Assembly: GCA_964017185.1 (NCBI GenBank)
Contig: OZ024870.1
Span: forward strand, 61,482,812-61,546,811
Length of the DNA stretch: 64,000 bases
Source: Rugalucina vietnamica
Taxonomy: Eukaryota > Mollusca > Bivalvia > Lucinida > Lucinidae
Direction: 5' to 3'
The notes below the pieces were generated by a model. The model saw nothing but the letters and a program-made list of their open reading frames with translations. It had not been told where the DNA came from and made no database searches. Below are positions 4,380-59,200 of the stretch, one piece after another. Position numbers and translations under genes: made by a program. Each line of letters opens with the position of its first letter. The first letter of the stretch is position 1.

Positions 4380-6929
4380 ACTAGAAATAAGTGTTTGTAA
4401 AACACTATGCCCCCAACTGTATGCTTGCCACTAACCTGGCACAGTTTTTTCATTATTTTTGAAAATCATGTAAGCAAACAGAGTTGACCTGGGCACAAAT
4501 AGCAAACTTGAGGACTAACAGTGATAACAGATGCACACTTAAATCCGAAAGTGGTAAAATTGATACATATTCAAAATTCCGTTATTTTGTCAAAATTTGA
4601 CAAAAAGTTCTCAAAAGTTAATCAGGTGATCTACTCATTTACCCCAATCAGCATACCAAATATGAAAGCACTAGCTCAAATACGTTTTGAGATATCTTGC
4701 ACGGTATACGGACAAAACACCCCACGGACATAACCCCCCACGTCCATTTTGTTATAGGTGGACGAAAACCACCACATGTTTTTTTGAAGGCTGACAAAAC
4801 ACCCCACGCCCAATAGTATAACGTGGACAAAACACCCCATGCAGATTTCAAAATTAGGACAAAACCCCCCTCATGTTTTTCTTAGTTCCCCATATGACAT
4901 GACTGAAAATTGATGGCTGTAAAATTTAGGCATAACCAAATCTTATGTTTTCTTTATCCAAGATAATATGAATCATATAACATGACTAAAAATTGATGAC
5001 TTGGACAAGAAACCATAACCAAATTTGATTTCAATCAGAATGTCTTATGTTTTAGCTCCACATATAACATAACAAAATTGATGACTTGGACATGAAACCA
5101 TGGCCAAATTTTATTATTTCTTTACATTAGTTATAGTGAAAGCTGCATATGAACTTATTTAAGATTTAAACTTTTTAATGAACAAATGTGTATATGGGCT
5201 GTTACAAAAATAATATCACAACATATTTCAAATCATTTTAATCAGACAATCAAGCAATTAACAATTTGACTTCAATTGAAAAACAACCATTTTAGCGCAG
5301 ACAGATTATAAAGGTGTTTGAGTTAATTGTGAAAATTAATTAAATGATTAAAAAATTCAATTACCTTAATAGCACTCAATTAGCACATTATGAGTTTAAA
5401 AAATGTACAATCACAATCAGTATACATGCATTTGTTTTAATAAGTGATAATTGGAATGGCATCAAAGAAAATACATCTACATAGAATTGAAAGAAGGAAA
5501 AAGAAGTGATATTAATGCCAGAAAATGCATGTGTTGTTTGCATTAGGGTGCTTCTGTCTGCCTCCATCTGCTTATCTACACTGCAAAAACATGAGGGGTG
5601 TTTTGTCCTAATTTTAAAATCTGCATGGGGTGTTTTGTCCACGTTATACTTTTGGGCGTGGGGTGTTTTGTCAGCCTTCAAAAAAACATGTGGTGGTTTT
5701 CGTCCACCTATAACAAAATGGACATGGGGTGTTTTGTCCGTGGGGTGTTTTGTCCTACACTCATCTTGCACACAAGATTTTCAAGATTTTTTTTCAAAGG
5801 GAGATAATTCAGAAAGGGGGCATAACTCAGAAAAGAAAAAAATACGGGTCATCTTTTTTTTCATGAGGAATCCATATATAAAATTTCAAGACACTAGCAT
5901 CCACTGTTTAAAAGTTTCAAATTTCATCCGAAAGTGGTAAAATTGATAAATTTTCAAAATTCCATAATTTTGTCAAAATTTGACAAAAATGTCTCAAAAG
6001 TTAATCAGGTGATCTACTCCTTGGCCCCAATCAGCATACCAAATATGAAAGCACTAGCTCAAATACTTCTTGAGATATCTTGCACACAAGATTTTCAAGA
6101 TTTTTTTTCAAAGGGAGATAATTCAGAAAGGGGGCATAACATACGGGTCATCTTTTTTTCATGAGGAATCCATATATAAAATTTCAAGACACTAGCATCC
6201 ACTGTTTAAAAGTTTCAAATTTCATCCGAAAGTGGTAAAATTGATAAATTTTCAAAATTCCGTAATTTTGTCAAAATTTGACAAAAATGTCTCAAAAGTT
6301 AATCAGGTGATTTACTCCTTGGCCCCAATCAGCATACCAAATATGAAAACACTAGCTCAAATACTTCTTGAGATATCTTGCACACAAGATTTTCAAGATT
6401 TTTTTTCAAAGGGAGATAATTCAGAAAGGGGGCATAACTCAGAAAAGAAAAAAAATACGGGTCATCTTTTTTTTCATGAGGAATACATATATGAAATTTC
6501 AAGACACTAGCATCCACTGTTTAAAAGTTTCAAATTTCATCCGAAAGTGGTAAAATTGATAAATTTTCAAAATTCCGTAATTTTGTCAAAATTTGACAAA
6601 AAGTTCTCAAAAGTTAATCAGGTGATCTACTCCTTGGCCCCAATCAGCATACCAAATATGAAAGCACTAGCTCAAATACTTCTTGAGATATTTTGCACAC
6701 AAGATTTTCAAGATTTTTTTTTCAAAGGGAGATAATTCAGAAAGGAAGCATAACTCAGAAAAGAAAAAAAATACGGGTCATCTTTTTTTCATGAGGAATC
6801 CATATAAGAAATTTCAAGACACTAGCATCCACCGTTTAAAAGTTAAGAAAAAGTGGTGCGGACACACGGACACACGGACAAGCCCAAAGCAATATGCCCT
6901 ACCAACTTTTTCAAAGTTGGGGGCATAAC
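4380..6929 (+). mobile_element. Composite tandem element, family F1, copy a (interrupted by a foldback element)
   Basis: Begins ACTAGAAATAAGTGTTTGTA, then a hairpin-prone stretch and CTATGCCCCCAACT; ends CCAACTTTTTCAAAGTTGGG then GGCATAAC. The 5' arm TATGCCCCCAACT is the complement of the 3' arm AGTTGGGGGCATA. Between them are about 307-bp monomers with GAGATATCTTGCACACAAG and AAATTTGACAAAAA. Monomer copies start near 4540, 5925, 6225 and 6540. A short CACGGACACACGGACA run precedes the 3' hairpin. The insertion at 4703-5762 is later. Architecture resembles bivalve pearl elements, often treated as non-autonomous Helitron/Helentron relatives; that link is inference. Confidence 0.75.
4703..5762. 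mobile_element. Foldback element FB1 with repeat-built arms and 9-bp target duplication
   Basis: Inverted arms of about 165-170 bp (about 4709-4876 and 5585-5755) nearly mirror each other. The arms are largely made of the unit GACAAAACACCCCA. The flanks carry an exact 9-bp direct repeat ATCTTGCAC at 4694-4702 and 5763-5771. Removing the element plus one repeat restores the GATATCTTGCACACAAG of the host F1 monomers, which proves insertion into F1. The core has no coding frame. A 9-bp duplication and long arms suggest a Mutator-like (MULE) source, by inference. Confidence 0.85.
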
Positions 6930-6930
6930 T

Positions 6931-7684
6931 AAGGATGGGAACGAATATTCGAATATTCGTATTTCTAACGAATATTCGAATGCGTTTCCAAATTCGAATA
7001 TTTGTATTTTTTCAAGTTCATATTTTTCATTCTTCTTTCTCTCGAGTTTTTGCCTAAAATTCGCATAGATTCTCGCGGCGCCTTTCTCTCTTAACGCAGT
7101 TTTCCGTGAAAGTCATCCTTGCAAATTGCGTTGTCAGTTTGACACTTTGTTGTTTTAACAATTACTTTAATTAGTCAAAAGTCGATCATTACCTGCCTCA
7201 GACGAGTTTGTTTTTTGAAAGGTGCGATTATTGTGCATGTAATTGACACCTTAAACAAGGGATTAATAGAAGATGCCACCCAGAACGAATTGCGGCAGTT
7301 TTACAGTAAAACAGCAAACCAATCAAACATAATTACTCATTGAAATACAGCCAATCACGGAGCGTGGCATCATTTTCGTTCTAGCGTTTCTTCAAATTTA
7401 CACAACCAAATTATTCATTTCATAGTTCTGAAAAAATAGTCATTCATTACAAATCCAAAATGCCGCCATCAACGCCGTCACGTGCTTGGAAGTGTAGTGA
7501 AAACAAAGACGCTGATCAGCTGCGCAGTTGATCGGCGCCTATGTTAATGAGAAAGGGAACTTACTCTAACGTCTCTCCGAGTTGAAATCTCAATGAAAAC
7601 ATTGATAATTTCTCTATCCGAATACATTCGAATAATGTATACGAATATTCGAATAGCATATTTGTCATTCGTTCCCATCCTTAA
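6931..7684. mobile_element. hAT-like non-autonomous element with GAATATTCG arms
   Basis: Terminal inverted repeat AAGGATGGGAACGAATATTC at the left and ATTCGTTCCCATCCTT at the right. The subterminal part is rich in the self-complementary word CGAATATTCG. No transposase frame. It abuts the 3' end of F1 copy a, and I found no clear 8-bp target duplication. A fragment of the palindromic MITE lies inside it (about 7490-7545). Confidence 0.65.
7490..7545 (+). mobile_element. Fragment of the palindromic MITE (copy C)
   Basis: Only the internal hairpin part is left: GTGAAAACAAAGACGCTGAT, CAGCTGCGCAG, CGGCGCCTATGTT. It lies inside the hAT-like element at 6931-7684. Confidence 0.55.
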
Positions 7685-9869: not shown

Positions 9870-11220
9870 AATACAGCCTGAAAGACGACATAGCCAAAGA
9901 AGGGGGACTTAGATTTTACGAGGTAAATGCATGCCATTTGGCTTATGTAACTCTCCCGCAACGTTCTTATTGCTAATAGAGAGATGTATGGGTGACATAA
10001 ACTAAAGGGCCTGTCACACACTCACGAGTTGAAGCCCCGACATGCTACGAGTTGGTACGAGTTATAAGTCGCCGCTTGTCGCGAGAGTTGCCACGATTTG
10101 TGTTGAAAAAGTTTAAAAGCTGTCACACACTCACGAGCTGAAGCTACGAGTTAGCGCAAATCATAACTCGCCGCTTGTCGCACGAGTTGCCACAAGTTAC
10201 AATGCCCTACGAATTCTACACGACATCTCTACGATAAAAGTCTTGGGAACTCGCAGGCATGTCAAAGTAAACTCGTGATATGTCGTAGGAACTCGAGAGG
10301 TCGCCTTCAATGTCGTAGCAACTCGTAGGTATCGTTGGCAACTCGCCATGTTTGACAAGACGCCGAGAACGCATGACATCCGACGACATTACTACGAGTT
10401 CTGTACGATAAGCTACGAGATCAGTACGAGTTATGCCCAGCCCATGCCCCACCCACTTTAAGACGGCGAGTTGCTACGACTTGCTACGATAATTTTAAAC
10501 CGTTTAAAATTCTCGTAGCCTTTCCACATGCTACGAGTTGAGAAGACTTGTGTGCGCTAACCGCCGACATAGGGCGAGTTCTCTACGAGTTGCAACGAGT
10601 TCACCTAAAAAGTGGGCCGAGCTTAACTCGTAGGTCCAACTCGTGTGTGTGTAACATGGTCTTTAGTTTACTAAACTACATCGTTTATTGCGATGACATT
10701 ATCATTCCTCAAGCATTCTATGAACGCTTGGGTAACTTGAAGGCCGTATTCGATTGCAGGAGCAGATTTTTAATCATACACCAAGCAAGTGCGAGTTCTT
10801 TCGTAACCAGGCGCTGATTACAAATAACCCACTAACTGCCCATAATAAAGTCCTCAAAAGAATTAGAGGCAGTTTTGTATCAGCAACAGGATCGACACTG
10901 AAGAATTGTCGCATACGCCAGTTAAAGTCTGGATCAGTCGGAAATAAACTATCCTACACACAAGCTTAGTGCAGCGTTTAGCTCAGAAGTGTGCTACACA
11001 AGTGCGAAAAAATTCTTATGACCTAAAGTTTAAGGTGGTCAAACAACAATGCTCTCGCGTCTTTACAAAAGCCAGTCTGGGCATCATAATAAGTCAACGC
11101 TGGCTAGCCGCACTTCAAGGCTAATTTAACAGATATAGAAGTGGCAAAGAAATACTGATGCCGACACCTTATCCCGCATGCCCGAAGACAATCATCTTCT
11201 CTGAAATCAAATATTAAAGA
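9870..11220 (+). pseudogene. Decayed Ty3/Gypsy LTR-retrotransposon polymerase
   Basis: Frames 3' of position 9870 hold reverse-transcriptase blocks in order: KCMPFGLCNSPATF (about 9926-9967), then, after the insertion FB2, YIVYCDDIII (about 10677, YxDD-type catalytic box) and PSKCEFF (about 10785). Further on, DADTLSRMPEDN (about 11158-11195) matches the end of the Gypsy RNase H domain. The blocks fall in different frames with stops between, so the copy is dead. No LTRs, gag or integrase could be recognised. It lies between the GPCR gene and ODR4. Confidence 0.75.
10005..10671. mobile_element. Foldback element FB2 built of CTACGAGTT repeats
   Basis: A 667-bp block of degenerate, both-strand TACGAGTT / AACTCGTA words. 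Ends mirror each other: CTGTCACACACTCACGAGTT (left) against AACTCGTGTGTGTGTAACAT (right). It splits the Gypsy reverse transcriptase exactly between GDIN and the YCDD box. Flanks share TAAACTA at 9998-10004 and 10672-10678, probably a worn 7-9 bp target duplication. Open frames inside (10197-10452) are by-products of the repeat. Confidence 0.75.
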
Positions 11221-12434: not shown

Positions 12435-13628
12435 ACTAGAAATGCGTGTTTGTAAAACACTATGCCCCCAACTGTATACTTGTCCCTAAACTGGCAGCTT
12501 GTATGATTCATTTATTTCATTTGAATGAAGTGAAATTTAATTTCCTAAAGAAGCTGTTCGGTTGCCTCTGTTTTTGACCTCCATCCAGAAACAGAATGAA
12601 AGCTTTTTGTAGACAAGTTATAAATGGAGTAAAAATTTCGAAATGGAGTTATTTTATCAAAATTTGACAGAAAGTCCTAAAAAGTTAATCAGGTGATCTT
12701 CTTTTCAACCCCAACCAGTATACCAAATATGATGGCTCTAGCTTAAATACTTTTTGAGATATCTTGCACACAAGATTTTCAAATTTTGTTTTAAAAGGGG
12801 CATAACTCCAAAAAGGCGCGTAACTTGGACATGAAAAAAAATACGGGTCAACTTTTTTTTCATGAGGAATTTGTATATGAAATTTCAAAACCCTAACATT
12901 CTCCGTTCAAAAGTTTCAAATTTCACCGAAAAGTGGAAAAATTAATCAAAATTTCAAAATTCCATATTTTTGTCAAAATTTGACAAAAAGTTCTCAAAAG
13001 TTAATCAGGTCATCTACTCATCAGCCCCAACCAGTATACCAAATATGAAGGCTCTAGCTCAAATACTTTTTGAGATATCTTGCACACAAGATTTTCAAAT
13101 TTTGTTTTCAAAGGGACATAACTCAGAAAAGGGGCATAACTTGGACATGAAAAAAAATATGGGTCAACTATTTTTTCATGACGAATCTTTATATGAAATT
13201 TCAAAACCCTAGCATTCACCGTTCAAAAGATTCAAATTTCACCGAAAAGTGGAAAAATCAATCAAAATTTCAAAATTCCGTATTTTGGTCAAAATTTAAC
13301 AGAAAGTTCTCAAAAGTTAATCAGGTCATCTACTCATCAGCCCCAACCAGTATACCAAATATGAAGGCTCTAGCTTAAATACTTTTCGAGATATCTTGCA
13401 CACAAGATTTTCAAATTTTGTTTTCCAAGGGAAATAACTCAGAAAAGGGGCATAACTCGGACAAGAAAAAAAATACGGGTCGACTATTTTTTCATGAGGA
13501 ATACTCACATAAAATTTCAAATCCCTAACATTCACCATTCAAAAGTTAACAGACGTACACACAGACAGACAGACAGACAAGCCGAAAGCAATATGCCCTT
13601 CCAACTTTTTCAAAGTTGGGGGCATAAC
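12435..13628 (+). mobile_element. Composite tandem element, family F1, copy b
   Basis: Same ends as copy a: ACTAGAAATGCGTGTTTGTA and CTATGCCCCCAACT at the 5' side; CCAACTTTTTCAAAGTTGGG then GGCATAAC at the 3' side. Three monomers (near 12640, 12940 and 13250) with GAGATATCTTGCACACAAG. An (ACAG)n microsatellite at 13556-13579 takes the place of the ACGG run in copy a. Uninterrupted, so it shows the layout of the family best. Confidence 0.75.
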
Positions 13629-14340: not shown

Positions 14341-14344
14341 ATCA

Positions 14345-15934: not shown

Positions 15935-15943
15935 TTAACATTC

Positions 15944-19900: not shown

Positions 19901-22900
19901 CAATACTGTGGGGAGTTAGTCTTGCCCAAGGACACAACATGGTACCTTGTGTGGGGATCGAACCCAGAACCTCTTAATTTTAATTTCAAGTCTGATGCTC
20001 TACCGCTTGGTCATCTTTCTCCCCTTAAGAAAATAGTCATTTTATTTAAAATTACAATGTATAAAGAAGCAAATTACAAAGCCTTATTAGCTGACCTTTT
20101 CAGCATCTTCCACTGCTGCCTTTGCTATGATGTATGCTTCACTGTGGATTGTTCCCTTCATTATGACAGATCCAATCTTATCCTCCGATACTGGATCCTC
20201 TATGGTTTTACCCTGTGTATGACACTGAAATGTTAAGGTACAAAATAAATTTGGGTATTAGAGTTTTAAGTCTTACAGCTAAGGTCATTTTGAGACTAGA
20301 CCTTGGTATTTTTAGTCTCATTCAAAAGACTGGATAAGCATGAACTCAAACTTGTGACTATTCCTCTAGGTTTTACAAGGCAAGTGACTTAACTACTATG
20401 CTACACAGACTCCTAAAGTTTTAGATGTTGGATGTTATAAAATTAAGTTTTGCTTTTCAGTGTCAGAAATTTTAGTCTATTTACTGACATTATACAATTG
20501 TTGCCCTTGAGTGAGGGTGACATGACGATTTGTTCACCCGAGGCAGGTAATATTGCCCGAGGGCAAGGCCCGAGGGCAATATAACCTGTCGAGGGTGAAC
20601 AAATCGTCATGTCACCCTCACTCAAGGGCAACAATTGATTTAATATACCAAACCACTTTTAAAACAAATCAGCGGCATGCCACACGACAAACGCATGTAA
20701 CTACAAATGCAACTGCACATTTAGGCGAATATGACGTCAGAGGGTAATAAGATCATGCGACATGACAGAATAGCACCCTCCACGTGCACTGTAAACAAAC
20801 GCATGTGACTACAAGTGTAGCTGCACGTTTTAAGGCAGATATGACGTCAGAGGGTAATATGATCATGCGACATGACAGAATAGCACCCTCCACTTGACAT
20901 GCTCTGGACCAATCAAAATCCACGCTCAGCCAATGAATATTAATGAGGTATAATAAAATGCCTTTAATATAGAAATTAACAGAAAGTGCTCACAAATTTA
21001 AGTGAAAATCTTACCTTATCAACTACATAAGAAATGGCAACATGTAGTATCCATGTGAATAGTCTTACCAATTTTACAAGAAGATTGCAGCTATACTGTC
21101 GTGGAATTGTCTGCCCTTTGTCTCGACCTTTACCCTTTTTCTCTGTGGACGGGTCCAAAGCTTCTGTTTGCGTTCTCATTTTACCATCAATTAGGATAAG
21201 GCTGTCATAAATTCTCGTACAAAATGGATGAACACAATACTGAAACATACAAATTATTCTTAACCCATATAAGGCTGGCGTCCTTTTAGTAGGACATAGG
21301 CAAACAGTGGGGCTATTCTGTTTGCACGGAGATATTTCATCGAAAAATGAAATAAAAAATAAAATCACTCCTAACACCCCACAAATGAAAGTGGACTCAT
21401 CCAATTAATAATGATGGAAGAATCCATTCGTCAAATATAAGTTAAATCATTCACATTCAAGTTTGAACAATGCTGGATTAAAACTGATTTTACTAGAGGT
21501 ATGATTATCAAAGAAAATGAATATCAAAGAAATAGGTATTTCAACTGTTTATGGCCCGTATTCAATGTCTTTTGAGACCAAATGAGCCGCCTCATGAAAA
21601 AACCAACAATCTGCATATGTGAAAACAAAGATGCAGATCAGTTTCGCGGTAACCGCGAAGCTGATCAGCGCCTTTGTTTTCGCTACATGGATAGTACAGT
21701 TCCCCTTCCTCTTAAATCCAAAATTTGAAGGTTCAAGCCTGCTTCTGTGATTGTACAGCCTGATTTGTGTCAGACCTGTTCGGAAACCACATTTTTTGTT
21801 TTCCCATGAGACGGCTCAAATGGTAAAGCAATAATCAGAAACTGGTGCAATCAGAACCAAAGTCTAACTCTAAAACCCAGGTGGGAAAAACTATTTGACA
21901 ATCAAGTATTTATGCAAAGAGAACATACCATAAGCTGAGTGAGCAGCTATTTCCCTAAAGGTGGCAACTCAGTAACCTGAACATAACTAAAGCAGACGAA
22001 CAACACATCTTATAGAAAACCATCTAAATCTTAAGGTATACAAAAATCTCCCCTTACTTGTGTCTGTATTAAACCTGAGGTGTTATGCAGTTTGGGGAAT
22101 TCATAGTATTATAGCAATAGTTCTTACCTGGATCTGTTTTAAGACTGAAGAGTTCTGTAGTTTAGGAGGTAACTGTACAGGAATGTCAACTGAGATGTTG
22201 GTGGAGAGTTGATGCCACGTCTCGGAGGAACCCTGGTACTTCCAGTCGGCTGGACGAAATGCACTCTAGAAATAGTGGATTATATGAGCCGCATTGTTAG
22301 AAAAGCGGATTGCCTATGCAAAAACGAAGGCGCAGATCAGCTTCCCAGTAACTGCGAAGCTGATCAGCGCCTTTGTTTTCGCTACACAGTTTCTCTTCTT
22401 CTTAAATTCGAAATTTCAAGCTTTTAGCCTGCTTCTGTGACTGTACAGGCCAGTTTGTGTCAGACCTGGTCAGAACTCCTGAAGACCCGTTTTCTCACCT
22501 CCTGGCACATATATAAGTAAAATATGTTGTTCAAATGAGAATATATGAGAATAAAGTTTAAATAAATGAGCCGCCTCATGGGAAAACCAACAATTTGCAT
22601 ATGCGAAAACAAAGGCTCAGATCAGCTTCGCGGTAACCGCGAAGCTGATCAGCGCCTTTGTTTTCGCTACTCGGATAGTACAATTCCTCTACTTTCTAAA
22701 TCCAAAATTTCCAGCCTCTAACCATCTTCTGTGACTGTGCAGCCCGGTTTGTGTCAGACCTGTTCAGAAACCACATTGTTGGTTTTTCCACGAGGTGGCT
22801 CAAATGTTCTATGTGGGAGAATAGTAAGTTATTTATAGAAACCAGCTATTCAAATGATTACTGTAATCGCTATTATCAAAGTAATTGACACTCTCAATTT

Positions 22901-25900
22901 ATTAATGCTCAAATAAACAATTTTTCAGTAATACTGAGACAAAAGCCACCATTTACCAGGTTTTAACTATAGATATTTATGTTAATGAGTCTTGCTCAAC
23001 ACTGGTGGAATTGGAAATTTTGGAACATCTTTATTTGAAATCTGACAAACAACTGACTCTCCTTGTGTATTGTGGTCATGAAAAATTATACAGTTTACCT
23101 TTGGATCTGAGACATCTATGGTTCTACAGGTGTACCTAGAATTGTGTTAAGGATATCAGGACAAGAGCCTTTAAAAGAAAAAACAACAAACAAATAAAAA
23201 CACAGACATACATCTTGAGTAACCAGCACTGTAAAGAAAAAGTTAAAACCACATTAAACAGCCAAATGCTTTCTGTAGGCGTACTGTAAATCCAACAAAG
23301 ATTTGCTTAACAATACATCAACCTTATTGGGTCATTAGAATCTTCCATTAAAGAGCTTACATGTATTTCATGGTATAGCGTGTGAAACATGCCGTCCCAT
23401 GGTTAAGAGAACAATGGTACTAATTACCATCAGCTTCTTGTGCATATTACAATTTGTGCTGCATGCACATGGGTACTCTGTGGTAGGTGCATGAGTTCTC
23501 TCAGTAACGAGAATTAGATTATTAGACTGTTCATTTGTGTTAGAAATACATGTATACAGAATAATTCAATTATGTACTCAAAGGATACTTTCTAGTTGTT
23601 GAACAAATCTGTAGTAACACCCTGTCCATATGTACATCTGTCTGCATGTCTAAACTGGACTTCTTTTCTAACTTCTGAAGGGCAAACATTATCTGGAATT
23701 GTAAAAGGCTATTATTATAAAATGAAAAAAAAAAAGAGTCAATAAGCAATGCTTATCCTGCCCATAACCCTGTATACTAAAGCCATACTTGAATTATAAA
23801 GGGAAATAACTCTTTAGAGGATTGGCACCTAGACTAAGCATTTGTCTCATAAATATCAAGATGCCTGCAAAATTTCATCTATAAATTCCATCAATGTGTC
23901 TTCAAGATATTAACGAAACAAAAGTGTTACGGACGGACGGACAACCTGAAAACAGCATTCGTTGTGGCAGGTGATATAAGCACTAATTCAGAAGGAAAAC
24001 CATGGTTGGAAATTAATGCCAAAAAACTATAATTATAATTATTATCTAACACAACCTGTATAATACATGTACCTGTCTTAGTTTAGCCTGAGAGCTCTGT
24101 ATCATCGGTGGCGGTGCCAGGGCAAACACACCGATCACCTGGAGACCACCTGGCAACATGGTGCTCACCTAGGAAAACAAAAGTGGTGTCATTTAAGAAT
24201 GTTGACAAGCATACTTTTATACCAGAGGACCAATGGTCCTGTAAACGCTCACCTGAGTCTGCTGCATATACCAATAAACATGTTTGAATATTATGGTATT
24301 TAACCCCAGTGCAGGGGCAGATGAAGCCCTTGGGCCGTTTTCTTTTTTCAGAATAATCAATATTCTGTCCATTTGCCAATTTCTTGCTGGCTTTTCCCTT
24401 CAAATGACGTTTTAACAGTTTTTCCCATTCAAATGCATGGGCAACCCATGTTGACCTTGCCATAAACTTGGTCAAGGTCATCACAGGGTCATGATTTATA
24501 TATACATTGTAGTACTATAGCCATGGATGCTTCACGCCAAGTTTCATTGAAGTCAATCTATTGGTTTCAGAGAAGAAGATATTTGAAGGGTTTTTACCAT
24601 ATATGGGCATGGCGGCCATCTTGGTCATGTGACCTAGATTATTAATATATACATTGGTTCCCCCATCCTATAGATGCTTCACATAAAATTTGGCTTCAAT
24701 TGGCCAAGTGGTTTTAGAGAAGATGTTTGAATATTATGGTAATATACATGTATATTGCCCCGGGGTGTGGGCATATGAGCCCTTAGGTCCATTTTTTTTT
24801 TCAGAATCATTAATATTTAGTCCTACTACCCATTTCCTGCAAGATTTTCACCTCAAATGACTTTTTAAAAGTTTTCCCCATTCCAATGCATTGGCGACCT
24901 ATGTTGACCTTGTCCTAAAATAGGTCAAGGTCACCACAGGGTCATATTTTATATACACATTGTAGTACTTCAGCCATTGGTGCTTCATGCCCAGTTTCTT
25001 TGAAATTGGTCCACCAGATTCGGAGAAGAAGATTTTTGAAGGGTTTTTACCTTATATGGGCATGGCATGGCCATCTTGGTCATGTGAACTAGATAATCTA
25101 TATACACATTAATTCCCACATTCCATAGATGCTTCACATAAAATTTGGCTTTGATTCGCCAAGCGGTTTCAGAGGAGAAGATGTTTGAATATTATGGTAA
25201 TATACATGTATATTGCCCCGGGGTGGAGGCAGATGAGCCCCTGAGGTCCATTTTTTTTCAGAATCATTAATATTCAGTCCTACTGCCCATTTCCTGCAAG
25301 ACTTTCACTTTAAATGACATTTTAAAAGTTTTCCCTATTCAAATGCATTGGCGACCTATGTTGACCTTGCCATAAAAAAAGGTCAAGGTCATCACAGGGT
25401 CATGATTTATATATACATTGTAGTACTTGAGCCATTGATGCTTCATGCCAAGTTTCATTGAAATCGGTCCAGTGGTTCCGGAGAAGAGAGTTTTTGAAGG
25501 GTTTTTACCATATATGGGCATGGCGGCCATCTTGGTCATGTGACCTGGATTATTTATATACACATTGGTTCCCCCTTCCCATAGATGCTTCATGTAAAAT
25601 TTGGCTTTGATTGGCCAAGCGGTTTCAGAGAAGAAGATGTTTGAATATTATGATAATATACATGTATATTGCCCCGGGGTGGGGGCGGATGAGCCCCTGG
25701 TGCCCAATTTTTTTCAGAATCATTAATATTCAGTCCTACTGCTCATTTTCTGCAAGATTTTTCCTTTAAATGACAATTTAACAATTTTTCCCATTCAAAT
25801 GCAAAGGCGACCTATGTTGACCTTGCCGTAAAATAGGTCAGGGTCACCGCAAGGTCATGATTTATATATACATTGTAGTACTTGAGTCATCGATGCTTCA

Positions 25901-28900
25901 TGCCAAGTTTGGTTGAAATCGGTCCAGTGGTTCCGGAGAAGAAGATTTTTGAAGGGTTTTTACCATATATGGGCATGGCGGCCATCTTGGTCATGTGACC
26001 TGGATTATTTATATACACATTGGTTCCCCCTTCCCATAGATGCTTCATGTAAAATTTGGCTTTGATTGGCCAAGCTGTTTCAGAGAAGAAGATCTTTGAA
26101 AATGGTGGACGACGGACGGACGACGGACGGACGACGGAGCATGGGTATACTATAAGCTCACCTTGTGAGCCTGACGGCTCAGGTGAGCTAAAAAACTGAT
26201 TATGTGGTATTATTTGAGCCTATCATTAATTGAAGTATGGCAACATTGCCACATCAACCAAAACCAATATCATAATGTCTTTGTCTATATACAGTTGTAC
26301 TGCCAAAATATTTACTTTATATCTAAAATGACTATGAAAACCAACCTGTTTTGCATGTGTAGCAGGCCATTGCTCATTCAGCAGCTCCAGGCTTGTTGGT
26401 TTACTCTGGGATTTCCGTCGCTTTTTCTTGGACTTTTCTGCATCTGCTTGATCATCATCATCACTGGCTTGGTCCTCCATAGGTTCTGGAGTCCGGACAA
26501 TGTGTACTGCATAGTCTTTCTGTGTAGATAACTAAAGCAGAACAAGAGAACTGTTTAATTCTTAAATTCTGTTGTATTGTAAGACCATTGTTTGTATGCT
26601 ATTTTTGTTCCCCTATATTTCCACAATCACGCATGACAATCATATTAAATTTTCAAACCATCAGAATGAATAATACGAATAATCATACTTTGATCTAACT
26701 GACTGCTTTTGATTCAGCTTATGGGAATACTCAGCCAATGTCCAGACTGTCAGTTATCCAAACCACTTTTCTCCTTGGCAGTCTTTAACCAAGGTCTCTC
26801 CATAGAAAAGTTCAGGAAACTCTGTACTGAATTTACAAATAATCCAAAAATCCCAAGTATCAAGTCAGGTATCATATATGGACGGTGCTGGAAGCAGTCA
26901 TATAACTTACTCTAATTGTGAGCAACCATTTAATACAAATTAAGGTCATGATACACTCCATTACAGAATACATGATCATATCAGCTTCACAATCAAATGG
27001 GCCACAACATTGGAAAATGTACCTTTGCACAATATATTGAGTACTTGAAAAACTATTATAATTTAAATGTATAATGTTTCTAGACTCTAGAGTCTAGTAC
27101 TAAGTCTTTATTTGACCAAATTATTCAAGTTATTTTGTGAGATATTACATAATCACAATATTAACCCTACAGACGTCATTGTTCTGAAAACTGACGTCAA
27201 AGTTACTTAATGCATTTCTGCATGTTAGCAGAGCCTACAAAACTCGATGCATTTGCTTAAAATTGCTTAAGCTTTTGGTCAGAATCTATTGTTTAGATAG
27301 AAGCAGACTATACTTACAAACAATATGTCAAAATCGTTTTGTCTATTTTTGTGACTATGTGGTTGCTATGGTAACCGTTTGACAATTGATATAGGAAATT
27401 AAGTATATTATGTGCTAAAACAAGGGCAGATAACTCCAAATATTAAAAATAAATATGTTTAAACCCCCATTTAAGCGATAGCCCTGTGTTCAAAGATAAC
27501 AAATACAGCGTTAATTCTGAATCATGTTTTACATGATTTTTCCGCTTCTGTGCAGTTTTTCCATTAATAGCATCAGAATGTCCGAAGGCACTTTTTGTCG
27601 CGTTGAGGTTCATATAATTTTCAAGAAAATAAATTGTGCAAATTCTCAAGAAAAATGTTCCGTAAAATTTTATATGAATAAAAGTTGTAAAAATGGACAC
27701 TGAGGTACATTGTAAGACAAAATGGACTCAAGCTCTAATGTTATTATTAATGTGGACTGGATAATTCAGTATGGTCTGGTGTAAAAAAATGAATGCTTCA
27801 AGAATATCAGGCTTATGTAAAACTGACACTAACGGTAAATTTTGAATGTACACTTTCTTTGTGATTAGGCCTAAATAAAATATATGTGTGGTTCCTGTTA
27901 CATGCCCCAAAAAATTAGGGTAGGTAGGTAGGGAGTATTATTTAATTTAGTCAAAACATGTAACACAGAATTCGGAAAACGGCCTCAAAATTGGAAAATA
28001 AGGCTATTTTTAGTTGTTTTTCTCTTTAAAGACCATTTTAATGTTTAGGGTAGGATGAAAAAATTCGGGTAGGTAGGGAAAGCTGAACCACACATATAAA
28101 TCATTTAGGCCTTATATACAACACTTGCATTAAAGGGTTTAAAGAGAGACATTGCTTTAACCAAGCAGATAAGATAAGCAGTACTCAGTGACTGTGTCCA
28201 TCCTTTGACCATAACTGGAAGCTGCAGGATCCAGAAATTAGACATCAACAGCACAAGACTGCTGATTGTCAAGAGTTAGATTGAGAAATATTAATAAAGA
28301 GGGCTTTGTTGGATCGGCAGATTTTCCATTTTCTTTGTTTACATGCCTTTGCAAGCATTCTAGACAGGTACCAATGATGACAGCAGCTAGAGGTTTTTAT
28401 AATCTATGTGGTAGGGACTACACATCTATATACGTAGCATCTTCCGATATAAGGTCAGACACCTTTGACAGTCAACAGACCTGGGTTAATCTTAATCGTT
28501 AATCATGATTACTACTTTTATTCAATTGAATTTTTTTTCAATTGAAAATTATTCTGTAATCGTAGATTTTTGTGATTGAAATTAATCTTATTCTTATTCG
28601 AATACTTTTCAAAAATGCCTGTAATCGTGATTGATTGTATAAATAATTTTCGATTACATTCCAAGATGTGCTGAAAATTCTTTTTCTGAAAAAAAAGAGA
28701 GAAAAAGAAAGTAAATAGACTAATATTTAAGATTATGTTCACAACAAGAATTCTGTGATTTTCCAAAAAAATTAATATATCAAATGGGAATTCTGATAAA
28801 GTAACAGATCAGATGTGCAGAATGCCATAAGTTTTGGCTTTTATCTCTAAATGTGAAAAAAAAACAACAACACACAAACAGCATTTTCTTTATGAAAATG

Positions 28901-34900: not shown

Positions 34901-37900
34901 CAAGGCATTCCCCCGTTGAAAAAGAGAAATGGAAGTGGAATAGCACAATCCGAATTTGAGAAGGCGGAAGAATTTAATGGTCAGTTCTCAGATGTTTTCA
35001 CTAAAAGTGAATACAAACAGGTCCCTCCTATGGATAGATCTGCCCCATTCATGCATGATATTGTGGTCACAAAGTAAGGGGTGACCAAACTCCTCAAAGG
35101 TCTAAACCCGTCTAAAGCCTTAGGGTGATGAGCTTCATCCCAGAGTCCTAAAGAAACTGGCTATGGAATTAGGGCCGGTATTCGCCCATCTCTTCCAGCA
35201 GTCAATTGATACAGGTGAAATTCCTAAAGAATGGTCTCTTGCTAATATTTGCCCCCTGTTTAAGAAGGGCGACAGGTCACTTGCCCGCAATTACCGCCCT
35301 GTTTCTTTGACATGCATTCCTTGTAAGCTTCTTGAACATATTGTATGCTCTAATATTATGGCCCATCTTGACGAACATGAACTCCTGTCGGACAGGCAAC
35401 ACGCATTTAGGAAATGGCATAGCTGTGAAACTCAGTTGACTACAGTGATAAATGACTGGGCCAAAATCTTGGACAAAAAAGGCCAGGTCGACACTTTTAT
35501 ACTCGATTTTGAAAAGGCTTTCGATACTCCTCCCCATGAACTCCTTAAAAGCAAATTGTTCAGCTATGGAATAGGTGGAACAACACTGAATTGGATAAAT
35601 GCTTTCCTTTGTTTCAGACAACAAAGGGTAGTGGTTAATGGTATTAAATCGGATTGGGCTCCAGTTGTGTCGGGTGTCCCTCAGGGCACCGTTCTCGGCC
35701 CCTTGCTGTTTTCCTTGTATATAAATGACATCTCAGCAGACATCGAGTCTGAAATAAGACTCTTTGCTAATGATTGTGTTTGCTATCGTGAAATCAAGAA
35801 TGAAGAGGATACATTGAAACTTCAAAGAGACATTGATCGCTTAGGCAGTTGGGCTAGAAAATGGGGAATGAGATTTCAACATGTCAAATGCAACATGATG
35901 CAGCTGACAAATAAACGGTCTAGTAAGATACAGGCTAACTACACCCTTGAGGGCACTTTACTGGAAAACGTTGAAAGCATAAAATACCTGGGAGTAACAA
36001 TCACAAATGATTTGAAATGGAATACTCATATTTCCAATGTTTGTACAAAGGCTAACAGAACTCTCGGATTCTTGAGGAGAAATTTGTATTCTTGTCTCCC
36101 AGATGTGAAAGAAGCAGCTTATAAAGGACTGGTGCGGCCAGTCTTGGAATATGGAAGCTCCGTTTGGGACCCTCACACTCATGGCCTCCAGCCTCCAGGA
36201 AGAACTGGAAAAGGTCCAAAATCGTGTGGCAAGGTTTGTGACGGGAAATTATGTTTTTGAAACCGGGAGCATGACTGGCATTTTAGGTCAACTGAAATGG
36301 GAATCTCTTAAGAAAAGGAGAAAGGATAGTAGACTTATATTGCTATACAAAGGTCTAAAGGGTAAAGCCAGAATGACACTGGCTATCCGCACGACGGTTG
36401 TGCCGATAATGCCGCTTATCGGCATGACCGTCGTGCGGATAAGCGGCGTTATCCGCACGACAGGAAAATAGATTTTTAAATATTAAATGCTTAGAGAATT
36501 GGTAACATTTTAAGTTGGTATATATTATCCATTTGTCCCAAACTGAAACAGATTATTTACCCATGCAAGAAATTTTACTTTTTAATTAACACAATTATTA
36601 TTTTGCTGAAATTGGCTTTCCTGTGAACTTACCTGTAAAAATCAGACATGCAAATTATCGTAGCTGAACTAATAAAAGAATGTGGTAATCCAAAACAATA
36701 AACAGCCTTTTAATTTAATAACAATGGATCGATTAGTATGAAACATTTCATTAAGACAAAGATTAGATCTTGCATAAAATGTACAATGGTGATAGTTTTC
36801 CGCTTTTTAATAAGTCTATTGAATCTCTATTCTTTTTTTGTATTTTTATTATTTTTATTCATTCATTTTATTTATTTACACAAAAGATGTTTTTCGAATA
36901 AACTTCAATAGTCAAACTTATCATTAATTCATTTAATTGCAAATTAATAATGTAATGCATAAGAAAGCTTGTTAGAAAATTTCATACTCCCGTCGTGCCA
37001 ATAGCCAATACCTGTAGCATTGGCTATCCGCATGACAGTCGGGCCGATAACGCCGCTTATCAGCACGACCGTCGTGCGAATAAGCGGCGTTATCGGCACG
37101 ACGGGACCGTCGTGCGGATAGCCTCAGCCAGCCAGAATACCCACAGATGACCTTATCCCAAAGAATAGGCGTCGTAGAAATCAACACTCTTTGGCTTTTC
37201 AGATACCTTCAGCTAGCAAAGAAGCGTACAAAAGTAGTTTCTTTCCACAGACTATCAGGGACTGGAATGACCTCCCCGATTCACTTGTCTCCTCTGCTGA
37301 AATGTCTGATGACTGTGTGTCCAAGTTCGCTTCACTCGTGCGTTCAAGGGACTAATTTCTCCCCCATCCGAACCCCCTGGTGAAATAATGTCATTTGGCG
37401 TGTCACCAGTAAACTATTCAGATTCAGATAACCAAATTACGGAATCTGAGATCGTGAATTGAATTACCCTTGAAATTATGACAAAACAGTTGACAATTTA
37501 GTTTGAAATGAGACCCGACCACTGACACAAATTTTGACGCAATTGTCGATAAAAAATTAATGAATTTATAAAATAAATAATATGAACTTAGGCACTGCCT
37601 AGAACGGGCATGCAATCATGATTTTGAAATTATTATTCATGAAACAACTTCTAAACTGCACTTACTGTAAAAGTATATGTTGTGTCATTGTCCTGTCCTC
37701 CCCTATCCAATACCCTACCCTACCCTACCCTACCCTACCCTTACTCCTACCCTAACTTTACTCCTACCATTACACCTAACCACCTACCCAACACCTTACC
37801 TCCTACCCTATCCTTACGACTACCCCTACCCTCCCCCTACTCCTAATCCTTCCCCTACCATACCCTTACTCCTACCCCTACACATAACCTCCTACCCTAC

Positions 37901-44027: not shown

Positions 44028-44030
<3 letters not shown>

Positions 44031-44061: not shown

Positions 44062-44063
<2 letters not shown>

Positions 44064-50200: not shown

Positions 50201-53200
50201 ATTGTAGTACTTCAGCCATTGGTGCTTCATACCAAGTTTCTTTGAAATCGGTCCTCAAAATTCAGAGAAGAAGATTTTTGAAGGGTTTTTACCATTTATG
50301 GGCATGGCAGCCATCTTGGTTAAATGTGAACTAGATAATTTATATATACATTAATTCCCCCATTCCATAGATGCTTCACATACAATTTGGCTTTGATTCG
50401 CCAAGCGGTTTCAGAGGAGAAGATGTTTGAATATTATGGTAATATACATGTATATTGCCCCGGGGTGGGGGCAGATGAGCCCCTGGGGTCCAATTTTTTT
50501 CAGAATCATTAACTTTCACTTTAAATAACATTTTAAAAGTTTTCCCCATTCAAATGCATTGGCGACCTATGTTGACCTTGCCGTAAAAAAAGGTCAAGGT
50601 CATCACAGGGTCATGATTTATATGCACATTGTAGTACTTCAGCCATCGATGCTTCATGCCAAGTTTCTTTGAAATCGATCCACCTGTTCTGGAGAAGAAG
50701 ATTTTTGAAGGGTTTTTACCATATATGGGCATCGCGGCCATCTTGGTCATGTGACCTGGATTATTTATATATACATTTATTACCCCTTCCTATTGATGCT
50801 TCACATAAAATTTGGCTTTGATTGGCCAAGCGGTTTCAGATGAGATGATGTTTGAATATTATGGTAATGTACATGTATATTGCCCCGGGGTGGGGGCATA
50901 TGAGCCCCTGGGGTCCAAATTTTTTTTTCAGAATCATTAATATTCAGTCCTACTGCCCATTTCCTGCAAGACTTTCACTTAAAATGACTTTAAATGACAT
51001 TTTAAAAATTTTCCCCATTCAAATGCATTGGCGACCTATGTTGACCTTGCCGTAAAATAAGTCAAGGTCATCACAGGGTCATGATTTATATATACATTGT
51101 AGTGCTTGAGCCATCAATGCTTCATGCCAAGTTTCTTTGAAATCGATCCACCTGTTCTGGAGAAGAAGATTTTTGAAGGGTTTTTACCATATATGGGCAT
51201 CGCGGCCATCTTGGTCATGTGACCTGGATTATTTATATACACATTGATTACCCCTTCCTATTGATGCTTCACATAAAATTTGGCTTTGATTGGCCATGCG
51301 GTTTCAGAGGAGATGATGTTTGAATATTATGGTAATATACATGTATATTGCCCCGGGGTGGGGGCATATGAGCCCCTGGGGTCCAATTTTTTTCAGAATC
51401 ATTAATATTCAGTCCTACTGCCCATTTCCTACAAGACTTTCACTTTAAATGACTTTAAATGACATTTTAAAAGTTTTCCCCATTCAAATGCATTGGCGAC
51501 CTATGTTGACCTTGCCGTAAAATAAGTCAAGGTCATCACAAGGTCATGATTTATATATACATTGTAGTGCTTGAGCCATCAATGCTTCATGCCAAGTTTC
51601 GTTGAAATCAGTCCACCGGTTCTGGAGAAGAAGATTTTTGAAGGGTTTTTACCATATATGGGCATGGCGGCCATCTTGGTCATGTGACCTGGATTTCTTA
51701 TATACACATTGGTTCCCCCTTCCTATAGATACTTCATATAAAATTTGGCTTTGGTTGGTCTAGCGGTTTCAGAGAAGAAGATCTTTGAAATTGTGGACGG
51801 ACGGACGGACGGACGACGGACGGACGCCGGATCATGGCCATCCTATAAGCTCACCTTGTGAGCCTAACGGCTCAGGTGAGCTAAAAATGGTATACATAAG
51901 CCCCATTATATCAGATCTGTTTCTGCATATGCCAAAATGAATTTACAGATCAGCTACAATGTAACCAAGCTGACAAAACAGGCTTTCTCATTTGAGCTGC
52001 ATCATGAGAAAACCAGAGTTTTGCCTAGGCAAAAACAAAGGAGCAGATCAGCTGTGAAGTAACTGTGCAGTAAATGTACAGCTGATCAGCGCCTTTGTTT
52101 TCGCTAGATGGACAGTTCAATTACTCTTCTTCCTAAATCTGAAATTTCAAGCTTATAGCCATCCTCTGTAGGTGCACAGGCTGCTTTGTTTCTGACCAGG
52201 TCGGAAAGCCAGAAGACCGGTTTTCTCAGGTCACGGCTCATAAATTGGCTTTTGTCTCAAGAAACCTGAATCCTATCTATCTACTCTGCCTGCTCAGCTG
52301 CAGAGACTAACAGACATGGCTGGAAAAGGGTTTTACCACCTACAGTGGCCACCTATTGGAAAATAGCTGCTCACTTGGCTTACAATATTTTTTCTTAGCA
52401 TAAGTACCTAATTTGTTTTAGCATAAGTACCTAATTGTCAATTTATTTTTTCCCACTTCGGTTTTCAGAGTGGGATTTTCTTTCTGATTGCGCAATTTCC
52501 TGATCATTACTTACTTGTACCTTATTATAATGCTCATCTGAAAGAAATTAATCAGAATGTAGCCTAAAAGTTCTGTGATGTATAAGATTTAAAAAGTAGA
52601 AATGTATAAATCACTTATTTTGGAAACACAAGAAATATTTCACTCAACTTACTCTTAAATTTCTCCTTAACGCAGGCCAGAGGGCAAACACTTGTATGGC
52701 AAAGGTGACTAGAGCAAAGGAATGCCAGGCAGTGTGAAGTCTTGACGCCATACAGACAGAAGCAAATAATCCAGTGTTTAAAGACAGCACTCCTGAAACC
52801 CTGAAAGTCAGAAATGCTTCACTTTATCAACCTGAAAAATGGTAAAATGGAACATAACTAAAGAAATAAAATTTTAGTCCTTGAACACTGATAGTTTTAT
52901 GGAAAACTTTGTTCAAAATAGATGCTTTTATTAAATAGATAAAAGCATAGCAAGATGCCTGGCATAAAAAAGTGGCATTTGAGATCAAAATTAAGAACAA
53001 AAGTGATCATTCATAAGGCATTGCAAAGTCAAAAATATTTCTTTCTTTCAAATTAAATTTTAAGTTTACATCCAACTCACTGGTCACAAACATCAAATTT
53101 TCAAAAGGCTTACATTTCAGCATCAGCTCCATAATCATGACAAAAGAGATTGGCCAGTAACATGATGGTTGTCATGGCGTAGATTGTGTCTGTTGCTATG

Positions 53201-56200: not shown

Positions 56201-59200
56201 ACATAAATTGTAGGTACTTAGAAATGTTAAGAGTTCAACTTAAGATTAAGATTAAAAGATGACCTTGTGGAACCCAGACTGGTCATACAATTCTTCATAA
56301 TCTAAGGTCTGGACAAGCTTACCTGCATAGCTGGTGAATAACAACCCCCGACTCTTTAACAACTTTCCAATACTCATACTCTCTGATGTACACTGTAAAA
56401 ATAATGAACACTGTAGTACTAAGTGTATTACATTCCCTAAAATATTTTAGCCCTAGCATTAATAAAATGCACCTCTAGTGGAAAGTTGGAAATGTATGAC
56501 AAAGATAATAGGCTTTTTATAGCACTTCGACAAACAAACACCAATTCATGTAGTCCCAAGAAATAAAACTTGACATTACAAAAACATGCCCATGCAATAT
56601 ACAGAGAATTTTTTCAGTTGAAAAAAAAAGAAAATTTTCAGTAAATTTTAAAATATTTTTCTTATTTTTGCTCAAAACATAGATTGTGGGTACACGTTAG
56701 AACCGCCTCGCCAGGCACAGGGGGCCTCCAGTTAATGTCCCGATCCGAAGGACGGCGCAATGTATCATGTCATTCCTGCAAATGACACGAAGGGAAACAT
56801 GTTCTCACCAACAAATTTTCCTCACCGCCGGCGGGGATCGAACCCGGGACCTCTAGCACAAGAAGCCAGTGCGCTGACCACTCGGCTACCTGGCTTCTAT
56901 ATACTTCTGGCAAATTATGATTTTATGAGTGTCAAAAACGATTAAATCACAATGATATTGACCGAGTAAAACCTGTAACTGAATAAGCAAAAAGACAGGA
57001 AAGGTGCAGTTCTGGTGGCCAATGTTGATTTCTTCACACAAAAGCTAGAGTAGACGACTAGCTAGTCTGTCAGTTGAAATGCTATCACCAGAGATGGGGT
57101 CAATTACTTTTGAAAGTAATGAATTACATTACCATTACATTGCATTTTCTTCATTACCATTACCATTACACCCTTTTTAGAAAAGTAATCATTACCATTA
57201 CATTGGAAATGTAATCATTACCATTACACATTACTTTTTGTCCCGATATGACGGTTGTCCCGATATGACGGACTTGTCCCAATATGGCGGATTTGAACAA
57301 AGTTCACTTTGGACTAAACATACAATTACAAGTGCCTGACATTATAAAAACATGGTGTTAAATTTTTATACTGATACCTTACCAAAAATGAGTGTACTGG
57401 ACAAATTCTCCCTCAGACATTTGCCCCAATTTGAAAAATGATGTTTGCGGATATCTGCCGCACACCAACTTAGGAGAAGGTTAGACATATTAAAACAAGA
57501 CTGTCTGCAACTGCTTCTTTGTGCAACAAAAAAAGTAAGATTTGTAAAATCTGTTTATAGAGGAATATCTTAATTCTTTTGAAATTCTTTTTCTTTATTC
57601 ATGTAAGCTGACTATCAAATTTGAGAGGACTGTTTCACAGAAACAAATTATCACTGGATGAAGTTGTTTAATATGTTTAATATGATGTTTTGCTTTGAGT
57701 TAAAATCAATTTTCATTTTTATTAAAATTAACTTTCATGTTTTTGTATGCACAGCTAACTTGTTTTATGTTTTTGCAAGATTGAAATTGAAGCCCCTTGT
57801 GACTTTATAGACTGATTCATGAGATTCCGGGACATCTCGGCCCATAACAAACTCGGCCCATGACAAACTCGGCCCTTGACAAACTCGGCCCATGACAAAC
57901 TCGGCCACCAAATCTAGGACCATACAAACTCGGCCCATACAAACTCGGCCCATATCTATAGATAATATGACAACCACATTTCAGAGTATTGTAGGAAGTT
58001 ATATACAGTGATTTGATATCAAAATATCATTTTTAGCATTTTTCAAGATAATACATATTAGCAACTCTAGGTTACTTTCCAATCCATATTCTCAATGAAT
58101 TATGATTGATATTAAGAACTGCTGCCTGAACAAATGATTTCAAGTAATGCAGAGTTTGTCATTATGCCGAGTTTATTATCGATCGTGGGTATAGTTGAAA
58201 GAAAGAAATAAGAAAGAATGAAAGAACTGGTAGTGAGTATTCTATGTAAAAGAAAGTTAGTCAATAAAAAATAAAATGATCATTGTCAATGTTTTGTCAC
58301 ACCTGGTCAGTAATTAGACAATGACGTCGACAGTATTTGTTTGGATGAAGAACTCAGTCAATTATGCAAAACAAACAATTACTGAACAAACCAATATAAT
58401 TATCACTGTTCAGACTGCATGCATCCTATTTATTAAAAATAATTGGTTTACTTGCTTGAATTAAATTGGTAAAATGATTCAATCAGAAAACACAAAATTA
58501 AACTTTGTTGTGTGTCCTTCTTTATTTTTACCTTCTTCCCTTCTGTTTGTCTGTTCTAACAGAATCATGGTGAAAACATTATTCTCTAGTCTTATGAAAA
58601 AAATAAGTCCACTGAAGTTCATTAAAGTTTTTGAAGTTTAGGAAACGCGATTTTCAAACCAATCTGCAACTGGTCGTATAATTAATAGAATATATTTTTC
58701 CAAAAACAATGTCAATAAAATTTTCTTACATTATAAAATAAATACATGACTCTAACATAATGTCCTCAATTGTTTCTCAAATGAAAAAATACTACATTTT
58801 ATATCAACACAAGTCAAGTAACCTCGTATAAAGATGAGTATATAAATAATAAGAGAATTGTATCATGTATATGAAGACTTCGTAATTTGTTTTTATCAGT
58901 ACTTGTAAGTAACTATAATATACTCGAATATTCCTTTAATGATTCTAGGAAATCCATATTGTATCAATATTATAAGTAGATGCCGAGTTGGATATGGGCC
59001 GAGTTTGTCATGGGCCGAGTTTGTTATGGGCCGAGTTTGTCATGGGCCGAGTTTGTTATGGGCCGAGTTGTCCAGTTACCATTCATGAGTGCATCTGTCA
59101 AACAATGTATCAGGGTAGTCTTTAATTTGAGTTAATCTTGAGGAACTGTTTTCACACTTTGCAAACTCTTTTGTTCTACTTTGTCACCTTTAGTAACAAC

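Follow-up and report, generated by a model that had tools for sequence, protein, structure and literature searches.

Four elements, FB1 to FB4, characterized by arrays of short repeated words, lie within a 64,000-nucleotide stretch of the Rugalucina vietnamica genome (the window), raising the question of whether a common look reflects a common source. The original prediction assigned all four an identical plan, with repeated-word arms around a plain AT-rich center, and placed them all inside other repeats, which is true within the window. Exact arm words were counted genome-wide at 358–1089 copies per family (FB1 word, 1089; FB2 19-mer, 358; FB3 20-mer, 652; FB4 21-mer, 359) versus 7, 0, 0, and 0 copies of the respective reversed controls. 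FB1–FB4 are real high-copy transposon families. That the arms arose as hairpins by chance or as artefacts of the assembly is hardly conceivable, given hundreds of copies against reversed controls of 0–7 together with exact duplications and empty sites, and this explanation is already refuted. Quite probably, Mutator-like (MULE) transposases supply the activity in trans that mobilizes FB1, FB3, and FB4 as non-autonomous cut-and-paste elements, FB2 is of another kind, and the common plan is a product of convergence.

The predicted plan holds for three of the four elements. FB1, FB3, and FB4 feature the long inverted arms of short direct repeats typical of a foldback structure, with a GC content of.43–.60 in the arms versus.24–.29 in the center. 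In FB2, arms (.51/.48) and center (.47, computed with bounds 10007–10671) are similar, so that the center is not AT-rich, and words occur throughout.

Duplications flanking FB1, FB3, and FB4 were scored at tips fixed beforehand from other copies of each family; the chance of an exact 8-mer or 9-mer at a set place is 2.6e-5 or 7e-6, respectively. FB1, a putative non-autonomous foldback element of MULE type (4703–5762, plus strand; tips GGTATACGGACAAAAC and GAGTGTAGGACAAAAC), has arms at 4703–4880 and 5585–5762, complementary at 96% over 171 nt, with word periods of 16 and 32–33. Its ends read GGTATAC/GAGTGTA, followed by GGA and then by the words. The exact 9-bp duplication ATCTTGCAC stands at 4694–4702 and 5763–5771. 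FB1 resides in a satellite monomer of ~315 bp: the joined flanks match six uninterrupted monomers at 82–96%, and ATCTTGCAC is single and uninterrupted in the five monomers at 6077, 6375, 12761, 13077, and 13393. Among 12 copies (11 of 20 fetched loci with both tips, plus the window copy, with L014 and L018 belonging to a single copy), 10 bear an exact 9-bp duplication. FB3, likewise a putative non-autonomous MULE-type foldback element (36375–37129, plus strand; tips GACACTGGCTATCCGC and GGCTGAGGCTATCCGC), carries 33-bp words, although in autocorrelation of its right arm some shuffles were not exceeded. It is flanked by an exact 9-bp duplication, AGCCAGAAT, at 36366–36374 and 37130–37138, and interrupts a LINE RT gene whose reading frame is kept across the joined flanks. 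The duplication measures 9 bp in 7/11 cases (the window copy and 10 pairs obtained in 9 of 20 loci; two rows, L047 and L054, are mispaired).

Exact 9-bp duplications had been predicted for three elements; this applies to FB1 and FB3, whereas that of FB4 is 8 bp long. FB4 (57823–59080, plus strand; tips GATTCCGGGACATCTC and GGTAACTGGACAACTC), presumably a non-autonomous foldback MULE of Phantom-like layout with 16-bp words and 77-nt arms that are 96% complementary, is flanked by ATTCATGA at 57815–57822 and 59081–59088. The family begins with GATTCCGGG, so the G in ninth position is already part of FB4. With family-fixed ends, an exact 8-bp duplication flanks 14 of 17 copies, and a 9-bp one flanks a single copy (16 of 20 loci plus the window copy, with L028 and L029 counted together as one). 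The host is a hAT-like element (57089–59687; target duplication GCTATCAC), which we take to be a hAT by the type of its ends; the single flank piece scanned gave no Pfam match. Duplication length is thus constant among copies of each family (FB1, 9 bp in 10/12; FB3, 9 bp in 7/11; FB4, 8 bp in 14/17), and each family keeps its own conserved, asymmetric tips. Precise insertion is documented by empty sites for FB1, in the uninterrupted satellite monomers, and for FB2, in gypsy relatives.

FB2 (10002–10666, plus strand; tips CTAAAG) is an inverted-end element in which exact TACGAGTT-like words, seven forward and two reverse, are spread over the entire length; its terminal inversion spans only 43 nt at 79%, so that the foldback structure is present only in part. 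The worn 7–9-bp duplication originally ascribed to it was not confirmed: two gypsy relatives read gacatAAATTTacgag across the insertion point, and the window copy has AAA on one side and TTT on the other, without any duplicated base. The host scores 0.032 with Pfam RVT_1, below the cut-off; its relatives read GDINLRDCLVYLDD, presumably an RT motif, and on this assumption the host is taken as a gypsy-type RT. In other FB2 copies, TWAA tends to stand at the ends. FB2 is probably a different kind of element, PHIS/Spy-like, that shares with FB1, FB3, and FB4 the repeated-word look only; the data lend no support to a Mutator-like source in its case. It might instead be PIF/Harbinger-like with a 3-bp TWA duplication, a reading for which identical 3-bp flanks, read by eye, are possible in 5 of 11 paired copies (L062, L070, L073, L076, and L080), five of the 16 pairs (L061, L067, L069, L071, and L078) being omitted because of mispairing or a damaged end. 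However, the 3-mers are inverted rather than direct in the window copy, L065, L068, and L079, L066 and L077 match neither pattern, direct repeats are without excess in the 16 pairs (some rows mispaired), and the empty site shows AAA|TTT without loss or gain. We therefore regard a Harbinger-like origin as possible but doubtful, and a Spy-like insertion without duplication as the better description of FB2.

What might have moved the other three elements can be approached from the MULE transposase loci of the genome, five of ten of which, among those read, have word-array ends. Tips of the transposase-bearing elements, except those of L093, were placed by duplication scan and not fixed beforehand. 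In L087, together with L091 and L092, a MULE open reading frame (ORF; 1.8e-14) lies between inverted arrays of 16-bp words (7 and 6.4 copies), with tips GGTTACA/CGTGACA and target duplication CTTTATAAC. L088 combines FLYWCH (7.7e-12) and MULE (1.8e-11) matches with words of ~15–17 bp, for which some shuffles were not exceeded in autocorrelation, and a duplication of GTTTCAATG. The label Phantom-like refers to this FLYWCH + MULE layout, which is listed in other groups too in the portion of the classification consulted (PMC6446971). The MULE transposases encoded by L083 and L084 match PHD at the C terminus (5e-6, above the cut-off, in L084; 5.8e-4, below it, in L083), and these elements have arms of 36- and 43-bp words and 9-bp duplications. 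Eight loci of FB1 and FB2 show similarity to a segment from the N-terminal part of the L089 frame; because the matches lie outside the elements in the three loci checked against bounds (L008, L017, and L062), this segment is taken for a dispersed repeat.

The search suggested along with the original prediction, for MULE transposase copies with matching arms, yielded a copy with a transposase fragment for FB4; for FB1 and FB3, none was found in the copies examined. L093, an FB4-family copy with FB4 tips at 315 and 3727 and an exact 8-bp duplication, TTGGGGAT, on both sides, contains a 221-aa ORF that aligns with the MULE transposase of L087 (33.6% identity in 137 aa, E 2e-14) and also matches L088 (8e-11). 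It covers only the part aligning to the C-terminal half of the transposase and is without Pfam match, and no FLYWCH was found in the three L093 ORFs scanned. Judged by these alignments, a MULE-like transposase fragment lies between FB4 arms, which supports a Mutator-like source for this family. Eight base pairs is also the usual duplication length of hAT and P elements, which would favor a hAT or P-type transposase as the mover of FB4. Foldback ends can moreover belong to the P superfamily, as in the P-type Galileo, according to the sections of that work cited here (PMC3688188). Yet such an origin appears very improbable in view of the fragment in L093 and of Muta1, a MULE reported, in the part of the paper considered, to make 8- or 9-bp duplications (PMC5225508). 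The FB4 duplication, 8 bp in 14/17 copies and in L093, fits the 8–10-bp Phantom-type range. FB1 also shows this trait, with 9 bp in 10/12 copies, and has the Phantom-type asymmetric tip leading into GGA and words.

For FB3, a Mutator-like source is supported because its tips are common to ZSWIM/PHD MULEs: they match four ZSWIM/PHD tips at a mean of 9.0/16 versus 3.0 for four Phantom-like tips, a difference reached in 0/20000 shuffles (the L082 tip, 15/16 identical to that of L083, was omitted). FB3 thus combines a tip like that of transposase-bearing members with a 9-bp duplication and long words, all traits of the ZSWIM/PHD type. No transposase was found in 20 fetched FB3 loci, including the 6.2-kb copy L060. 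Nor were L083-like places seen by eye near the FB3 words listed (100 of 652, all on contigs C1 and C2), 3 of 55 such places being on C1 and none on C2. A Mutator-like source is more weakly supported for FB1, since it is suggested by the resemblance of FB1 to FB4 tips (best of four pairs, 15/22 ungapped, p 2e-5; 11/16 by shuffling, 0.0007). The fetched FB1 copies yielded no transposase. Comparison of 100 of 142 FB1 tips, covering contig C1 through part of C10, with 59 PF10551 places and 117 places resembling L093 gave none inside an element either; the closest is 5.8 kb off and, by orientation, outside the element. At two further transposase places, L094 and L095, the 1.9 kb inspected on each revealed neither FB1 nor FB4 arms; L095 has one weak FB1-like tip with five mismatches. 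The long FB1/FB4 copies L014 and L021 were considered as autonomous, but their long RT-like frames, apparently LINE by reading of the translation, are insertions, and the copies revealed no transposase.

If one promiscuous Mutator-like transposase could mobilize every element with arrayed arm words, whatever their sequence, this would explain why the plan and 8–9-bp duplications are common to three word sets; a likeness of the FB1 and FB4 words was not shown (circular alignment 8/16, reached by 2651/3000 shuffles). We consider such a source very improbable, since the tips of FB3 and FB4 lean to different transposase branches (moderate discrimination only for FB4, 594/20000 shuffles; none for FB1, 9037/20000), duplication length is constant per family (9, 9, and 8 bp for FB1, FB3, and FB4), and FB2 lies in the same window without a duplication. 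A common source for all four is rejected on the basis of tips and duplication lengths: no fewer than two branches of MULEs are involved, together with one element of a different kind. The predicted evolution of arms by repeat expansion fits the data, tips being alike and words different. Homogenization of arms within elements was not seen, A–B arm identity being nearly equal within and between elements (FB4,.800/.801; FB3,.791/.788; FB1,.862/.857; the FB1 center could not be scored).

In the mechanism we favor, MULE transposases would act in trans on the gene-less elements FB1, FB3, and FB4. The tip, an asymmetric outer ~6–7 bp plus a motif common to both ends, is the expected cutting place, the family-specific word array inside it may provide transposase binding sites, and the AT-rich center would be dispensable filler. 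FB4 and, probably, FB1 would belong to a Phantom-like branch with ~16-bp words, and FB3 to a ZSWIM/PHD-type branch with 33–43-bp words. FB2, probably PHIS/Spy-like, would have entered without target duplication, and the plan shared by the four elements would have arisen by convergence. That tips track the transposase branch while words vary is possibly novel. A rather speculative extension is that tip and words are separate modules: the tip (first ~16 bp, cut site) would follow the catalytic transposase branch, and the words (~16- or 33–43-bp spacing) would be swapped wholesale as the zinc finger (FLYWCH/PHD) changes. If so, word period predicts zinc-finger class.

The foldback shape itself is already known from Tm1, Muta1, and Galileo, which are compared here as far as described in the portions of the literature cited. 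Tm1 of root-knot nematodes, a Mutator/Foldback element of the Phantom subclass, makes 9-bp duplications; its ends start with asymmetric outer motifs of 7 bp, continue with GGA, and lead into 13–15-bp tandem words, and its copies are mostly gene-less (PMC3169594). FB1 and FB4 resemble it in the succession of 7 bp, GGA, and 16-bp words; the sequences differ, however, and FB4 duplications are 8 bp. Muta1 and Muta5 of Aedes aegypti are MULEs assigned to the Phantom group (PMC6446971), with 8- or 9-bp duplications and terminal inverted repeats of 145 and 151 bp that consist of a terminal motif (10 or 8 bp) and nine copies of a 12-bp repeat with 3–4-bp spacers (15–16-bp period) or a 15-bp repeat; they have >300 and >200 derived copies, and the authors class Muta1 as a foldback element of type 2 (PMC5225508). 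Duplications, motif-plus-repeat ends, and many derived copies recall the FB elements, whereas word sequences and tips differ and FB3-like words are longer (33–43 bp). Galileo and Tetris share the foldback shape with internal tandem repeats, but Galileo, of the P superfamily, depends on a P-type transposase, and the repeats of Tetris measure ~220 bp (PMC4079207). Spy/PHIS elements insert within AAATTT without duplication (PMC4482050), as does the FB2 window copy; in contrast, words fill the entire FB2, and no transposase was seen with it. A single genome thus holds two MULE branches and another element with the repeated-word look, plus copies still holding transposase sequence. Among the systems compared, and in the portions of the sources cited, binding by word arrays is described only for Galileo, whose internal tandem repeats contain transposase binding sites (PMC3688188); with families of similar tips and different words, word-array function is directly testable here.

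The four foldback elements flagged in the window are present at 4703-5762 (FB1), 10002-10666 (FB2), 36375-37129 (FB3) and 57823-59080 (FB4), and each represents a family rather than an isolated oddity. In the genome searched (1.09 Gb, 47 contigs), the FB1 word occurs in 1089 exact copies against 7 for a reversed control, and an FB4 21-mer, an FB3 20-mer and an FB2 19-mer in 359, 652 and 358 exact copies, respectively, against 0 for each reversed control; the exact tips of FB1 and FB4, i.e., their outermost bases, are found 142 and 130 times, with 0 for each control. The identical plan originally ascribed to all four describes FB1, FB3 and FB4, whose inverted arms consist of short words. FB2 is less alike: its terminal inversion comprises 43 nt at 79%, its words (TACGAGTT, seven exact forward and two reverse) spread over the entire element, and its centre almost equals its ends in GC richness. 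Twenty loci were fetched for each family, and arm versus centre conservation was scored for FB4 and FB3. Between copies, each arm is conserved at.95-.97 versus.85 for the centre in FB4 (n=13), and at.94-.95 versus.84 in FB3 (n=7). Arms taken from different elements resemble each other as closely as the pair within a single element does, so there is no sign of within-element homogenisation.

The elements were inserted precisely. The joined flanks of FB1 match six uninterrupted ~315-bp satellite monomers of the same window, which serve as empty sites, at 82-96% identity; this satellite forms two arrays (5841-6844 and 12652-13547), and FB1 lies inside a monomer of that kind. FB3 interrupts a LINE reverse-transcriptase gene (RVT_1 upstream, 1.5e-32) whose reading frame is preserved when the flanks are joined; a degenerate CCCTAC-type microsatellite (37711-38331) lies ~350 bp past the end of that frame. 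FB4 is nested in an element at 57089-59687, with ends CAGAGATGGGGT and the target duplication GCTATCAC on either side, which we take to be hAT-like from its type of end. Two gypsy relatives of the FB2 host (C5:37903580 and C5:42742199), which align at 73% identity to bases 51-295 of the joined flanks (311 bases in all), both read gacatAAATTTacgag through the insertion site, whereas the window reads gacatAAA, the element with CTAAAG tips, and TTTAC, with zero bases duplicated. The worn 7-9-bp duplication once assigned to FB2 is a chance likeness of tip and flank. Elsewhere, an FB4 copy is nested in an FB3 element (L027 with L048, C1:21853700-21858500), giving the relative order of insertions, and long, uninterrupted RT-like frames lie within FB1 and FB4 copies (L014, 2280-4985, 902 aa; L021, 2368-5439, 1024 aa; LINE by reading); both are expected where repeats are dense. 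The window also contains a tandem array of 16.8 151-bp units and two apparently related arrays of 455- and 465-bp units, together occupying 29297-31832, 24343-26100 and 50518-51796, as well as a hairpin (20495-20637) whose 70-nt arms are 91% complementary and separated by 3 nt.

With element ends fixed from family copies, each of FB1, FB3 and FB4 has two differing tips, both conserved: GGTATAC and GAGTGTA, then GGACAAAAC, in FB1; GACACT and GGCTGA, then GGCTATCC, in FB3; GATTCCG and GGTAACT, then GGACA, in FB4. At these ends, an exact 9-bp duplication flanks 10 of 12 FB1 copies and 7 of 11 FB3 pairs, two of these pairs being mispaired. FB4 copies show exactly 8 bp in 14 of 17 cases and 9 bp in one; the FB4 duplication is therefore 8 bp long, and the ninth base of the predicted 9-bp duplication is the element's own first base.

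The MULE (Mutator-like) transposase domain PF10551 is found at at least 59 places in this genome, 10 of which were read. Tandem-word arrays stand at element ends in five of the ten, both ends being identified in four of these. The four are L083 (36-bp words; PHD match at the C terminus, below cut-off), L084 (43-bp words; PHD match at the C terminus, above cut-off), L088 (~15-17-bp words; FLYWCH plus MULE) and L087, extended by L091 and L092 (16-bp words; 33% identical to L088 over 250 aa). A single end was found for L082 (34-bp words). The 160-bp inverted repeat of L081 contains no tandem word, and the stretches read of L085, L086, L089 and L090 contain no word-array arms. An OTU protease domain lies beside or fused to the MULE transposase gene at L086 (9.5e-13) and L089 (8.8e-8). 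Scanning found 9-bp duplications around L081, L083, L084, L087 and L088, that of L084 being low-complexity. Arm word periods across FB1, FB3, FB4, L087, L083, L082 and L084 are 16, 32-33, 34, 36 and 43 bp; several of them lie close to a multiple of 16 bp, or ~1.5 helical turns.

A search with the L088 protein gave a match 1.6 kb from an FB4 tip, in a 3.4-kb FB4-family element (L093) with both FB4 tips and an exact 8-bp duplication, TTGGGGAT. Its 221-aa open frame aligns with the MULE transposase of L087 at 33.6% identity over 137 aa; the frame has no Pfam match, and a PHD-like finger upstream falls below cut-off (5.7e-4). FB4 tips around a MULE-like transposase fragment correspond to the transposase copy with matching arms that the prediction had proposed to look for, and the link of FB4 to MULEs is direct. 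Relatives of the L093 fragment (51% identical, near-equal scores) at C7:16226283, C7:25119486, C13:14648895 and C5:20352375 have frames of 230-233 aa, with one stop in the C5 copy, and are perhaps a recently amplified family. FB3 appears linked to ZSWIM/PHD-type MULEs through its tips, which over 16 bases match four tips of that branch at a mean of 9.0 versus 3.0 for four Phantom-like tips, a difference reached by 0 of 20000 shuffles. The same comparison does not discriminate between the branches for FB1; its tips resemble those of FB4 (15/22, best of four pairs), and no transposase was found near the 100 of 142 tips covered, suggesting a weaker link than for FB4 or FB3. The postulated Mutator-like source is supported for FB4, by tips for FB3 and less firmly for FB1, and is not supported for FB2.

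It is quite probable that FB1, FB3 and FB4 were moved by MULE transposases, FB4 by a Phantom-like one; our confidence stops there because the putative Phantom label comes from layout (FLYWCH plus MULE, the Phantom arrangement; PMC3169594) and one PHD match lies below cut-off. Trans-mobilisation of the foldback arms is the most likely mechanism: a MULE transposase produced elsewhere would bind the arms and cut at the tips, and the element would be inserted at a cut staggered by 8 or 9 bp. Arrayed words may provide multiple transposase binding sites; in Galileo, binding to internal repeats of this sort was demonstrated (PMC3688188).

Foldback MULEs of this kind are already known, and FB1, FB3 and FB4 add new families to them. 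Titles and abstract openings of the papers listed yielded no account of such elements in molluscs, subscription literature lying mostly outside the search, and the words foldback and Phantom are absent from the available text of a bivalve transposon survey with 39 curated MULEs (PMC10294476). What may be new is modest: the tips of FB3, less clearly of FB4, appear to track the branch of the transposase even as the words vary. Word spacing, too, seems to follow the branch (~16 bp versus 33-43 bp) among the few elements read. The window copy of FB2 fits the Spy transposons, described as inserting inside AAATTT with no duplication (PMC4482050). In Tm1, asymmetric 7-bp motifs are found together with GGA and words of 13-15 bp, and its authors state that foldback shapes occur with different transposase classes (PMC3169594). 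In the reports available, the closest precedent for FB1, FB3 and FB4 is Muta1 of Aedes, with 8- or 9-bp duplications, more than 300 derived copies and ends in which a terminal motif precedes nine 12-bp repeats spaced 15-16 bp; 10 of 12 long-TIR Muta families have repeats of this kind (PMC5225508).
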